Source: a virus. Taken from it: DNA of 45,739 nucleotides. Positions 39,807-45,739 of this stretch are shown here, piece by piece. The notes below the pieces were generated by a model that ran no database searches, was not told the origin of the DNA, and saw nothing but the letters and a program-made list of their open reading frames with translations. The position numbers were made by a program, and so were the translations under genes. How positions within the stretch are numbered: position 1 is the stretch's first letter; the number at the start of each line of letters is the position of its first letter. Location of the stretch: positions 1-45,739 of the IMG/VR virus record IMGVR_UViG_3300048041_000144. One strand, given 5' to 3'.

Positions 39807-39867
39807 TGGTTAGAGCGCCTGCCTTACAAGCAGGATGTCGGGGGTTCGAGTCCCTCACTGCCCACCA
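39807..39867 (+). other. tRNA-Val(UAC) 3' fragment, attachment site
   Basis: The sequence from TGGTTAGAGC onward folds as the 3' part of a tRNA: anticodon arm CCTGC-CTTACAA-GCAGG (anticodon TAC), variable loop, T arm with TTCGAGT, 3' acceptor strand ACTGCCC, then ACCA. The 5' acceptor GGGCAGT and the normal D arm are missing; bases before 39807 do not pair. A tRNA gene lacking its 5' half is the usual mark of an att site made by integrases that target tRNA 3' ends. The intact gene should be at another att site outside this window. Confidence 0.8.
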
Positions 39868-39881
39868 ATAGAATCAACAAC

Positions 39882-41159
39882 TTAGTTAATGTTGACCTTC
39901 AGCTCACTGCCTGACTGCGGTGGATTTTGCGGGTACCCTGCCTGATTTTCATGAATTGCGGGGGAACTGATGGATTCCACGGCGCTGCGCAACTCTTCAA
40001 CTCCAAAATGACCATACCGCGCGGCCATCTTCGCCATTGTGCTGGCGGACCACCCAACCACCTTGGCAATAATGGGAATGGGAATGCGGGCGGCAATCAT
40101 GCGACTGACCGCCGAGTGCCTCAAATCGTGAAATCTAAGTCGGGTCAGAGCAGCGGGCAAAGTTGGCGTCTCAAAATGGCAGTCTGCGCATTCATACCCG
40201 GTTGCCGGTTTCTCACGGTCGATCAAAGTCCCATCCCCGCAGTTGGGGCAATGGCGCTGTGTCCGTTTTCTGGCAGACCTCCATGCGGTTTGAATGGTTC
40301 CGACCGGCTTATCCGGGGCGTAATCGCAGACCTGGACGGTCCCGCCGAATGTCCCTTCGGTCCCGTGGAGGCCGTACCGCTCCGATGGAAAGACGAAATG
40401 CGCCGGTTGCCGGTTGGGGAACTCCTGTGCCCAAAACTTCAAGGTTTCGACGGCCCGCTGATTCAAGGGGACTGTCCGGCCTGTGCCCGCCGCCGTCTTG
40501 TCCTTGCCGAACTTGAGGCAGCGGTTTACAAAGTCGATGTTTCCCCATTGCAGAGTGCGAATCGTGTTGTATCGTGCGCCGGTTTCAAGGGCCAGCGTCA
40601 CGAAAGGCAGCAGAGAACGGGAAACGGAACGGCTGCATTCATGTAGAAGCATGGTTTCTTGTTCGGGAGTGAGAGCGCAGCCCGCATCCTGTCTTTCGGG
40701 GAGCATGGTCACGTCCGATTGAATCCGTGCCCAAGCTCCATACTTGCGCATGATCTGGCGCAACATTCCGACTTCGATGTTTACCGTCCGATTGGATGCG
40801 CCTTCGGCAAGGCGCACCGTCTGATACCTCGCAATGTCCCGCGCCTCTATGTCCACAAGCAGTTTCTTGCCCAGTACGGGCAATAGGTGGCCGATGGCAT
40901 ATCGAGCGATTTCGGCCATATTCGGCGACCACTTGAGTTGTTTTGCCTGTTGCCACTGAGCGGCAGCGGTGGAGAGCAAGTCCGGGCGCGACTGTCTGCG
41001 GATGCCAGCGTTCCCGTCTTTCAGGGATTGTTTTCGCTTGTCAAAGACTTCTTTCGCTCGCGTCTTCGAGGTCATCCCCGTTGTTTCGCGGATGCGCTGC
41101 GAGTGAAACATGAAGTCCATGACGAAGACCTTGCTGCCCTTGGGTCGATAGATGCTCAT
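39882..41159 (-). CDS. int: tyrosine integrase with embedded zinc ribbon
   Basis: A 425-residue integrase that ends 15 bases from the tRNA fragment. Core-binding domain at about 60-150. Catalytic Arg196 (ETGARYNTIRTLQW), Lys near 222, H344xxR347 (FHDLRHSA) and Tyr382 (AARYGH). The usual second His is replaced by Trp370 (VGWSAST), a known variation. A CPNC (304-307) and CADC (324-327) zinc ribbon is inserted just ahead of the HxxR box, which is unusual for this family. It is the last gene of a three-gene leftward unit. It should integrate the right-hand element at tRNA-Val. Confidence 0.93.
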   Translation of the reverse strand: MSIYRPKGSKVFVMDFMFHSQRIRETTGMTSKTRAKEVFDKRKQSLKDGNAGIRRQSRPDLLSTAAAQWQQAKQLKWSPNMAEIARYAIGHLLPVLGKKLLVDIEARDIARYQTVRLAEGASNRTVNIEVGMLRQIMRKYGAWARIQSDVTMLPERQDAGCALTPEQETMLLHECSRSVSRSLLPFVTLALETGARYNTIRTLQWGNIDFVNRCLKFGKDKTAAGTGRTVPLNQRAVETLKFWAQEFPNRQPAHFVFPSERYGLHGTEGTFGGTVQVCDYAPDKPVGTIQTAWRSARKRTQRHCPNCGDGTLIDREKPATGYECADCHFETPTLPAALTRLRFHDLRHSAVSRMIAARIPIPIIAKVVGWSASTMAKMAARYGHFGVEELRSAVESISSPAIHENQAGYPQNPPQSGSELKVNIN

Positions 41160-41224
41160 GAGTGTTCGTCCTTTCCTTTGTTTCGTGTTACCTATGGGTC
41201 ACGCTGCTTTTGACTCTGTCCGCC

Positions 41225-41452
41225 TCAACCTCGGACAGACCTGAGACGCTCCACCAGTTCGTCTATCCACTCAGGTTTGAGTGTTATAAGCGGTTCCCCG
41301 GTTTCTGATGTCTCCACCTGCGCACAGATAATCAATGCCCTCTCTTTGCGTTGTTCTGGCGGTAGGTCCGTAAGATCAGACAGGGAGCGGAAAAGCCGCA
41401 AAGCAGCAACAATGGTTTCCAACTCGATTTCATTTAGTGTGATTGTGGTCAT
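41225..41452 (-). CDS. small acidic hypothetical protein
   Basis: A 75-residue protein preceded by AAGGAG inside the end of the upstream gene, three bases away. It is helical and acidic, with leucine-rich segments (IELETIVAALRLFRSLSDL; EWIDELVERLRSV). No family is recognised. It is co-transcribed between the zinc-finger protein and the integrase, so a role in regulating integration or the element's switch is possible. Confidence 0.6.
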   Translation of the reverse strand: MTTITLNEIELETIVAALRLFRSLSDLTDLPPEQRKERALIICAQVETSETGEPLITLKPEWIDELVERLRSVRG

Positions 41453-44342: not shown

Positions 44343-44476
44343 TTCGAGTGGGCAGCCCGGAGATTGTGGGCCGGATAGTCGATCTTCGTACCGACAGGGC
44401 CAAAGTGCGATGGAGTTTGAACACGTCCACGTGGGCGAATCGACGGACGTTGATCCTCACGAAACCTCAACCGTAA
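44321..44476 (+). CDS. 51-residue KOW-like miniprotein
   Basis: A short frame overlapping the end of the previous gene. Its product (MRIGSRVVRVGSPEIVGRIV, then DLRTDRAKVRW and RRTLILTKP) is a stand-alone version of the same barrel as in residues 88-130 of the upstream protein: matching GxRVxxxGxPxxxGxVxxLxxxxxxVxW. The similarity supports it as a real gene and suggests tandem duplication. An AGGCG precedes the ATG. Confidence 0.55.
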   Translation: MRIGSRVVRVGSPEIVGRIVDLRTDRAKVRWSLNTSTWANRRTLILTKPQP

Positions 44477-44492
44477 TCGAAAGGAAATAACC

Positions 44493-45002
44493 ATGAGCAA
44501 CAATCCTTATCCGAAGAGTAATATGCCCCCGGTCCGCTCCACCAGCGGCCCCAAAGCGAACCAGCAGCCTGCCATCCCCGGCGGAAGAACGCTCTATGAC
44601 ACATCGAGAGCACAGCAAACTGCCCGGTCTAAAGGGCCGATTCTCCCACCGGACCGTCAACGCGTTAGCTACCCGTCCATGGTCAAGTACGAATTGTTGG
44701 TAATTCCACGCTCCGAATCAGACCTTCGCCTGGGGAATTTCGATGAGGTTCTGGCCAATGACCTGGGCCGTCACATTTCATCGAGGGTGCGCGAGGGGCT
44801 CCGTATCAGCCCAACGGCAGCGGTATCCGAGTTGGCCCACTACGTTGCCACCATGAAAGGTTTGAGTTTATTCGACACGGCGAGCATGGCCGGCTTCGAG
44901 AAGTTGGGCGAGCAGTTTGCAACCAACCCGAATGAGGAATCCTTCAAGCCCGTCGAGCAATACTTGAACAGCCTCACGCCGGAAGCGCGAGGTGCGGAAT
45001 GA
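44493..45002 (+). CDS. hypothetical protein of right-hand element
   Basis: A 169-residue protein behind AAAGGAAA. The first 60 residues are Pro/Ser/Asn-rich and probably disordered; the rest is helical and acidic (FDEVLANDLGRHISSRVREG, SELAHYVATMKGLSLFD, EKLGEQFATNPNEESFKPVEQYL). No family is recognised. It overlaps the next gene by four bases. In this position other satellites carry packaging-interference or scaffold-like genes, but nothing in the sequence shows that. Confidence 0.6.
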   Translation: MSNNPYPKSNMPPVRSTSGPKANQQPAIPGGRTLYDTSRAQQTARSKGPILPPDRQRVSYPSMVKYELLVIPRSESDLRLGNFDEVLANDLGRHISSRVREGLRISPTAAVSELAHYVATMKGLSLFDTASMAGFEKLGEQFATNPNEESFKPVEQYLNSLTPEARGAE

Positions 45003-45739
45003 GCGAATATCCAACCACAGAACCACAGGATGAAATCATGACAACGCAAACCGAAGATAGCGCCATCACAGAACCGGAAGATGAAATCATGACAATGAGC
45101 GCAGAAGATAGCGCCATCGCAGAGCAGGAGCCGGAAGATACATTCCTCGACGATGCAGCCGAGTTTCTATCAGAACAATTCGAGGCTGCTTTTGCCATGC
45201 TCATCGAAAGGCGCGACGAGGCATATGTGAAAGCCGTCGCAACCCTGGACGACGAGCGAATGGCCCTGCTGCGAGAGTGCGGGGAGATTGAAGAGGCAAT
45301 CGGAAACCTGGAACCGATCCTAGCCGCTAAAGATCGCGAGGCCAATCGCCAAGCCGATTCTTTCCTGCTGGAAGGCCACCCGGAACAGTCGCAAGCCAAG
45401 CTCGCAGAGGCGGAAGCGGCAAGGAACGCTCCGGCCGCTATGCGTAACAGGCAGCGCGAAATCGAGGTTCGTTACCAGGCTATTGAGGACGAAAAGGAAG
45501 TTGTCGCGCGCCGTGTTGCTAAGGAGTGGTGGGCCGAGTGCCAGAAAATCACCAGGGCGGCAGAGCACGGATATTTCATCACCTTGCTGGATGGCCTGAA
45601 ACATGGCCTGTCGGAGTTCGAACAGCGCACCGGCACCGTGGCCTGTGTCAATCGGTTTATAAACATTCGCATCCACGATCTAATAGCGGATTCAAGCAGC
45701 GAGGAGTGGAGAAGCGGTAGCGGCTGGTACGGGGCGTGA
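44999..45739 (+). CDS. hypothetical coiled-coil protein of right-hand element
   Basis: A 246-residue protein ending exactly at the window edge. The N-terminus has an acidic near-repeat (DEIMTTQTEDSAITE, then DEIMTMSAEDSAIAE). Residues 50-170 are a long charged helix (FEAAFAMLIERRDEAYVKAVATL, QSQAKLAEAEAARNAP, REIEVRYQAIEDEKEVVARRVAKEW) likely to coil. No known family. It overlaps the upstream gene (ATGA), so it is part of the primase operon. Confidence 0.6.
   Translation: MSEYPTTEPQDEIMTTQTEDSAITEPEDEIMTMSAEDSAIAEQEPEDTFLDDAAEFLSEQFEAAFAMLIERRDEAYVKAVATLDDERMALLRECGEIEEAIGNLEPILAAKDREANRQADSFLLEGHPEQSQAKLAEAEAARNAPAAMRNRQREIEVRYQAIEDEKEVVARRVAKEWWAECQKITRAAEHGYFITLLDGLKHGLSEFEQRTGTVACVNRFINIRIHDLIADSSSEEWRSGSGWYGA

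Follow-up and report, generated by a model that had tools for sequence, protein, structure and literature searches.

The last 5.9 kb of a 45,739-base viral record lie directly behind a prophage of a soil acidobacterium and carry an integrase and a replication gene of their own, which raises the question of whether this segment belongs to the prophage or is a separate element, possibly a phage satellite with its helper next door. The window, by which we mean the whole stretch of DNA analysed, is the entire IMG/VR record of 45,739 bases. With moderate confidence we take the sequence from 39807 onwards, which runs past 45739, as a small integrative island that resembles a phage satellite and sits in a tRNA-Val gene behind the prophage; the record holds its left 5.9 kb, out of an expected total of 8-15 kb. 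The island is best read as a PICI- or PICMI-like satellite, and no such element has been reported in Acidobacteriota. Work on phage satellites has centred on Firmicutes and Proteobacteria, and cyanobacteria and actinobacteria have yielded candidates (PMC11389934). The original prediction knew of none in Acidobacteriota, and our literature search, itself incomplete, found no paper on them either. A bounded, recurring group in this dominant soil phylum would extend satellites to bacteria with almost unknown phage biology.

A tRNA-Val site shared by a prophage and an island

The first base of the window is the ATG of one gene and its last base ends the stop codon of another, in the style of a trimmed provirus; as the record stops at that stop codon (45739), the right end of the island lies outside it, and no contigs overlapping the cut end were found. 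The features that define the left neighbour and the junction are as follows.

1..39806, complete lambda-type siphoprophage sharing the tRNA-Val site (PHROGs; left junction from an identical contig)
9711-10283, prophage terS (PHROGs)
11404-13449, prophage terL, GpA-type (PHROGs)
14889-16670, prophage portal (PHROGs)
18620-20686, prophage fused protease-capsid (PHROGs)
24074-26377, prophage tape measure (PHROGs)
30277-34146, prophage J, a J-type fibre (PHROGs)
35951-36421, prophage endolysin (PHROGs)
38130..39332, minus strand, prophage integrase for the same tRNA-Val (PF00589; homologue at the tRNA-Val att in G776 and G770)
39807..39867, plus strand, attR of the prophage and attL of the island, the 61-bp 3' end of tRNA-Val(TAC) (100% identity to Terriglobales tRNA-Val genes; same 61 bp at both ends of a complete related prophage)

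The original prediction had started the element at 39807, and this position proved exact: it is base 1 of the copy of the tRNA-Val(TAC) 3' end, whose final 61 bases occur with 100% identity in many Terriglobales genomes. The other end of the prophage was read in an identical contig, G772 (IMGVR_UViG_3300022877_000038; also L143), in which an intact tRNA-Val is followed by the first 2,371 window bases, so that window base 1 lies 37 bp past the intact tRNA; the large terminase of this contig is 100% identical to that of the window prophage. A related prophage, G776 (terminase 65%), is flanked on either side by a tRNA-Val copy and has, beside the att site, an integrase homologous to that at 38130-39332. 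Another related prophage, G770, also has this homologue beside its att site, and its right tRNA-Val copy is followed by an apparent host rsmI (identified by eye). Because of the G772 junction and the two-ended G776, the siphoprophage is complete at 39.8 kb, with attL just outside the window and attR at 39807-39867. The full siphoprophage that had been predicted as the neighbour was thereby confirmed, with terS, terL, portal, protease-capsid, tape measure, J and endolysin all recognised by PHROGs. A second tyrosine integrase (7948-9195) separates its replication genes from terS. The prophage large terminase recurs at 100% identity in viral contigs of several further metagenomes (L124, L125, L142 and L143), and one of these contigs, L143/G772, supplies the left host junction.

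These junctions bear on whether the segment is a decayed prophage or simply part of the same provirus, as its place in one IMG/VR provirus record with the phage might imply. We regard this as highly improbable: the segment has its own integrase and its own att copy, its ORFs are intact, and the prophage needs no part of it to be complete. Membership of the same provirus was rejected on the two-ended G776 together with the G772 junction. Prophage and island thus occupy one attachment site in tandem in the same tRNA-Val. Their integrases show only marginal similarity (28% over 60 residues, E 0.009), and two different integrases therefore appear to use this one site. Since both elements sit at the same tRNA-Val, their adjacency needs no helper relation. 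The tandem array raises the question of whether a satellite and a phage compete for one attachment site or leave together.

Gene content and a candidate replication origin

The visible part of the island contains the following features.

39882..41159, minus strand, island tyrosine integrase (PF00589, E 5.6e-19; phrog_1; 55% identical to the integrase of the bounded element L076)
41225..41452, minus strand, 75-aa ORF between the integrase and zinc-finger genes (ORF call; no family match)
41456..42187, minus strand, CxxC...FCSxxC zinc-finger protein (same place in L006, L076, L203 and L204)
42278..42493, plus strand, AlpA-like HTH_17 protein (PF12728, 28.4 bits against a cut-off of 27)
42493..43923, plus strand, D5/SF3 replicative helicase without a primase domain (D5_N, PF08706, 5.8e-32; DUF5906, PF19263, 9.2e-12; phrog_6088, E 4.8e-139)
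43920..44342, plus strand, 140-aa ORF overlapping the candidate origin (low coding score; no family)
43932..44023, candidate replication origin (iteron doublet GTGCCGCTTGTGCC and its inverse, directly 3' of the D5 gene)
44493..45002, plus strand, W169, first gene of the downstream module (homologues in L006, L203 and L204)
44999..45739, plus strand, W246, second gene of the module (homologues in L006, L203 and L204)

ORF calls, Pfam and PHROGs placed the integrase, regulator, AlpA-like gene and SF3 gene in the order and at the places predicted, although some of the labels changed. The divergent layout is real, with the integrase and zinc-finger genes running leftward and the AlpA-like and D5 genes rightward, while the divergent promoters proposed for it matched only at chance level in a consensus scan. 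The supposed regulator has no Pfam match; it is a zinc-finger protein conserved in the relatives and a probable regulator or excision partner. The AlpA-like protein is a candidate activator/excisionase, and the end of its gene overlaps the D5 start by one base. As for the predicted SF3 primase-helicase, the helicase stood and the primase did not: the protein aligns to positions 333-765 of a 772-position primase profile, which is the C-terminal half, and Pfam and PHROG profiles found no AEP/Prim-Pol domain in it. No virion genes were detected by Pfam or PHROGs in 39868-45739, in agreement with the prediction for the visible part, the far end of the island being beyond the record. No relatives of the island integrase were found in viral contigs.

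In PICIs the origin occupies the region 3' of rep and always has an AT-rich stretch between two iteron sets (PMC6092414), and 43932-44023 has just this form: two iteron sets, an AT-rich middle and a position directly 3' of rep. The doublet GTGCCGCTTGTGCC stands at 43932-43945 and its reverse complement at 44010-44023, and the 64 bp between them are 58% AT, compared with 44% for the island. This pair is the longest inverted repeat in the element, and its 14-bp arm was reached in none of 60 island shuffles. The same layout, with different iterons, directly follows the D5 gene in L017 and L082 and recurs less clearly in L076; L006, L008, L078 and L077 did not show it, which leaves four of the eight elements examined (window, L017, L076 and L082) with it. 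The overlapping 140-aa ORF (43920-44342) may not be a real gene.

Bounded relatives and the conserved downstream module

D5 relatives were gathered from a genome-collection scan and from searches of about 400 genomes each at the level of phylum and order; such a relative (E below 1e-30) turned up in 20 of the 396 phylum genomes. In Acidobacteriota, seven complete relatives of 7.7-14.9 kb are bounded by direct repeats of 37-48 bp, mostly at tRNA genes.

L006, Terracidiphilus MAG, tRNA-Arg, 48-bp repeat, 8,974 bp, D5 element
L008, tRNA-Arg, 14,869 bp, D5 element
L076, tRNA-Lys, 14,873 bp, D5 element
L078, tRNA-Arg, 9,292 bp, D5 element
L082, tRNA-Glu, 8,367 bp, D5 element
L203, tRNA-Met, 39-bp repeat, 7,670 bp, apparently AAA-type replication protein
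L204, 37-bp repeat reaching the contig end, 8,477 bp, DnaB-type helicase

An integrase and replication genes are present in all seven, and the D5/AlpA core is common to five. L076 and the window are syntenic: both have the AlpA-like and zinc-finger genes, and the integrases match at 55% and the helicases at about 60%. In L006 an HTH_17 gene overlaps a full Prim-Pol/D5 primase-helicase by four bases. In a quick D5 tree with weak inner support, the window grouped with L006, L076, L077, L008, L078 and L079 (94% SH-aLRT, not strong). A Pfam scan of 57 proteins, mainly from L006, L008, L076, L078 and L082 and including the family-less genes of the window, gave hits to integrases, HTH_17, D5_N, DUF5906 and primase, single hits to a resolvase and an IS1595 transposase, and a small number of other hits; no protein among them was recognised as a terminase, portal, capsid, tail, relaxase or mating protein. 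The satellite-type architecture that had been proposed is thus backed by complete bounded relatives free of virion and conjugation genes, by the PICI-style origin and by a conserved downstream module. An empty-site search for L006 found the tRNA and one flank alone conserved in relatives. Extra partial tRNA-Arg att copies lie beside the complete elements in L008 (173-192) and L078 (2811-2835), suggesting repeated insertions at the same tRNA-Arg.

The module consists of W169, W246 and an HTH protein. Neither W169 nor W246 matched a known family in Pfam or PHROGs. Relatives of W246 with good E-values occurred at three other places among 397 genomes (L006, L203 and L204), each time in the order W169, W246 and then the HTH protein, and given this synteny the gene next past 45739 should be the HTH protein, whose L006 counterpart lies at 13208-13639. 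In the samples searched, W169 and W246 were found only in similar islands, and they are not known PICI genes; no relative of W246 or of the HTH protein was confirmed in viral contigs. The module stays constant with three replication types (D5, AAA and DnaB): where the D5 gene would stand, L203 has a 372-aa, apparently AAA-type protein and L204 a DnaB-type helicase. The module, kept with all three replication systems, offers a specific candidate for a new kind of hijacking device. The best PHROG match of the HTH protein is a DNA-binding family, and AlphaFold predicted a long two-helix hairpin for W246 (pLDDT of at least 90 over 86 residues). Fold searches with the W246 model and a low-confidence HTH model returned nothing significant, and to call the HTH protein "TerS-like" or W246 a "scaffold" therefore stays a guess. 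We tentatively propose, as a possibility rather than a probability, a new Acidobacteriota satellite family with a new three-gene packaging/helper-control module (W169, W246, HTH) and a swapped replication gene (D5, AAA, DnaB), whose members can share a single tRNA with a siphophage in a tandem array.

Comparison with known satellites and the helper question

The island resembles two described systems most closely. The PICMI search model combines an integrase, AlpA (PF05930/PF12728) and a DUF3987/DUF5906 primase, with Fis as the fourth gene (PMC10803314), and three of these four are present in the island above cut-offs, namely integrase (PF00589), AlpA (PF12728) and DUF5906 (PF19263). The island and PICMIs share a core of integrase, AlpA-like HTH and DUF5906 primase/helicase, a small size (expected for the island), the lack of capsid and terminase genes (for the island, in its visible part) and an extra gene beside int (PMC10803314). 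PICMIs lie beside fis, whereas the island (in tRNA-Val) and most of its complete relatives lie at tRNA sites; the island also belongs to a different phylum and carries the additional W169-W246-HTH module. With PICIs (SaPI and Gram-negative; PMC6092414) it shares the gene map, in which int and a regulator run leftward and an xis/AlpA-like gene and rep rightward, the origin immediately downstream of rep, and more genes beyond it. PICIs have no structural or lytic genes and measure around 15 kb; the visible part of the island is free of such genes and the complete relatives measure 7.7-14.9 kb, with the far end beyond the record. The island differs from PICIs in having no recognisable terS or capsid-morphogenesis homologue. 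A PICI att site is never occupied by prophages (PMC6092414), whereas the tRNA-Val of the island is also used by the prophage. Because it breaks this rule, the island is not classed as a member, and by analogy we take it to work like a PICI or PICMI without assigning it to either. The predicted resemblance to PICIs was borne out by the gene map and origin. P4-like satellites likewise combine an integrase at a tRNA, an AlpA-like protein and a D5-type replication protein, but the window protein lacks the primase domain, and neither the visible part nor the complete relatives gave a family match to psu, sid or delta.

More distant D5 elements carry particle genes. In Vineibacter terrae, L017 (4959-18275; same as L003) encodes int, AlpA, primase, D5, portal, protease, capsid (MCP), HNH, TerS and TerL, with no tail gene noticed, and from its gene content it is a cf-PICI-like element in Alphaproteobacteria; its D5 protein is 56% identical to that of the window. 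L081 (208-7957), from Terriglobales, the same order as the Terracidiphilus genome, has an HK97 major capsid gene behind D5. L088 (2348-14118), an 11.7-kb element in the phylum whose bounding 45-bp repeat derives from the 5' half of tRNA-Ala, contains D5, a terminase large-subunit fragment and an integrase, with no capsid gene noticed. Because these elements carry capsid or terminase genes, the comparison indicates that the D5 replication gene travels in satellite-type elements; true phages (AcaML1, 55.8%) and plasmids commonly carry members of the family as well. L081 additionally has a toxin-antitoxin-like pair, and it is one of four D5 elements (L081, L077, L080 and L075) in the Terriglobales genome G491.

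The related helicase, AlpA-like gene and integrase of L017/L003, together with the capsid gene in L081, could mean that the island is itself a capsid-forming satellite of the cf-PICI type, with capsid and packaging genes past 45739. We consider this improbable. The visible part, which the record cuts at 45739, shows no capsid or packaging gene, and neither do the five complete D5 relatives, which include the nearest ones by D5 tree and module (L006 and L076); moreover, the L017 portal starts about 0.85 kb after D5, and the 1.8 kb after D5 in the window contain no portal.

The original prediction also described the neighbour as helper-type and proposed looking for a cos/pac match to it. We ran this comparison on the visible part, and the best match between island and prophage was 15 bp (E 0.19), which is chance. 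With no packaging-site-like DNA in common and the adjacency explained by the same tRNA-Val site, the helper claim was not upheld, and the island appears tied to this prophage by the shared tRNA alone. A search with two helper markers, lambda-type (GpA-type) TerL and HK97 capsid, detected neither in nine genomes with related elements, which are possibly incomplete, apart from the capsid gene inside L081.

This lack of two common prophage markers in the hosts of complete relatives fits a non-viral integrative island with its own int and D5, moving by natural transformation or as cargo and hijacking no phage; D5 replication genes do occur on plasmids too, and the downstream module has no recognisable phage function. 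We hold this account to be unlikely, though the most substantial of the rivals. The 57 proteins include no mobilisation gene, and no relaxase or mating-pair genes were found in them or in the visible part, which also speaks against a mobilisable or conjugative element; the AlpA-like gene, the PICI-style origin and the gene map fit satellites; and other D5 elements carry the capsid or terminase genes described above.

Returning to the phage-satellite reading, we infer that the island depends on a helper phage, and by analogy with PICIs and PICMIs it probably moves in particles borrowed from other viruses. Around the gene order, att core, bounded relatives, origin-like repeats and conserved module that we observed, a cycle can be drawn in which an incoming or induced phage would raise the AlpA-like protein. 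The integrase, AlpA-like and zinc-finger proteins would then excise the island via the 61-bp att core, and the D5 helicase would bind the inverted iterons just downstream of its gene, open the AT-rich stretch and replicate the island circle with a borrowed primase. The W169-W246-HTH genes might finally steer packaging into the helper particle or interfere with it; the phage induction, the packaging and this role of the module are suppositions.

Two relatives show further features near the integrase. In L076, a 421-aa protein (13947-15212) between the integrase and tRNA-Lys looks TIR-like/nucleotide-binding by eye, has no Pfam match and is possible defence cargo. In L203, the integrase gene shares an ATGA (13340-13343) with the zinc-finger gene, an overlap like that of the excision gene iolg with int in PICMIs.
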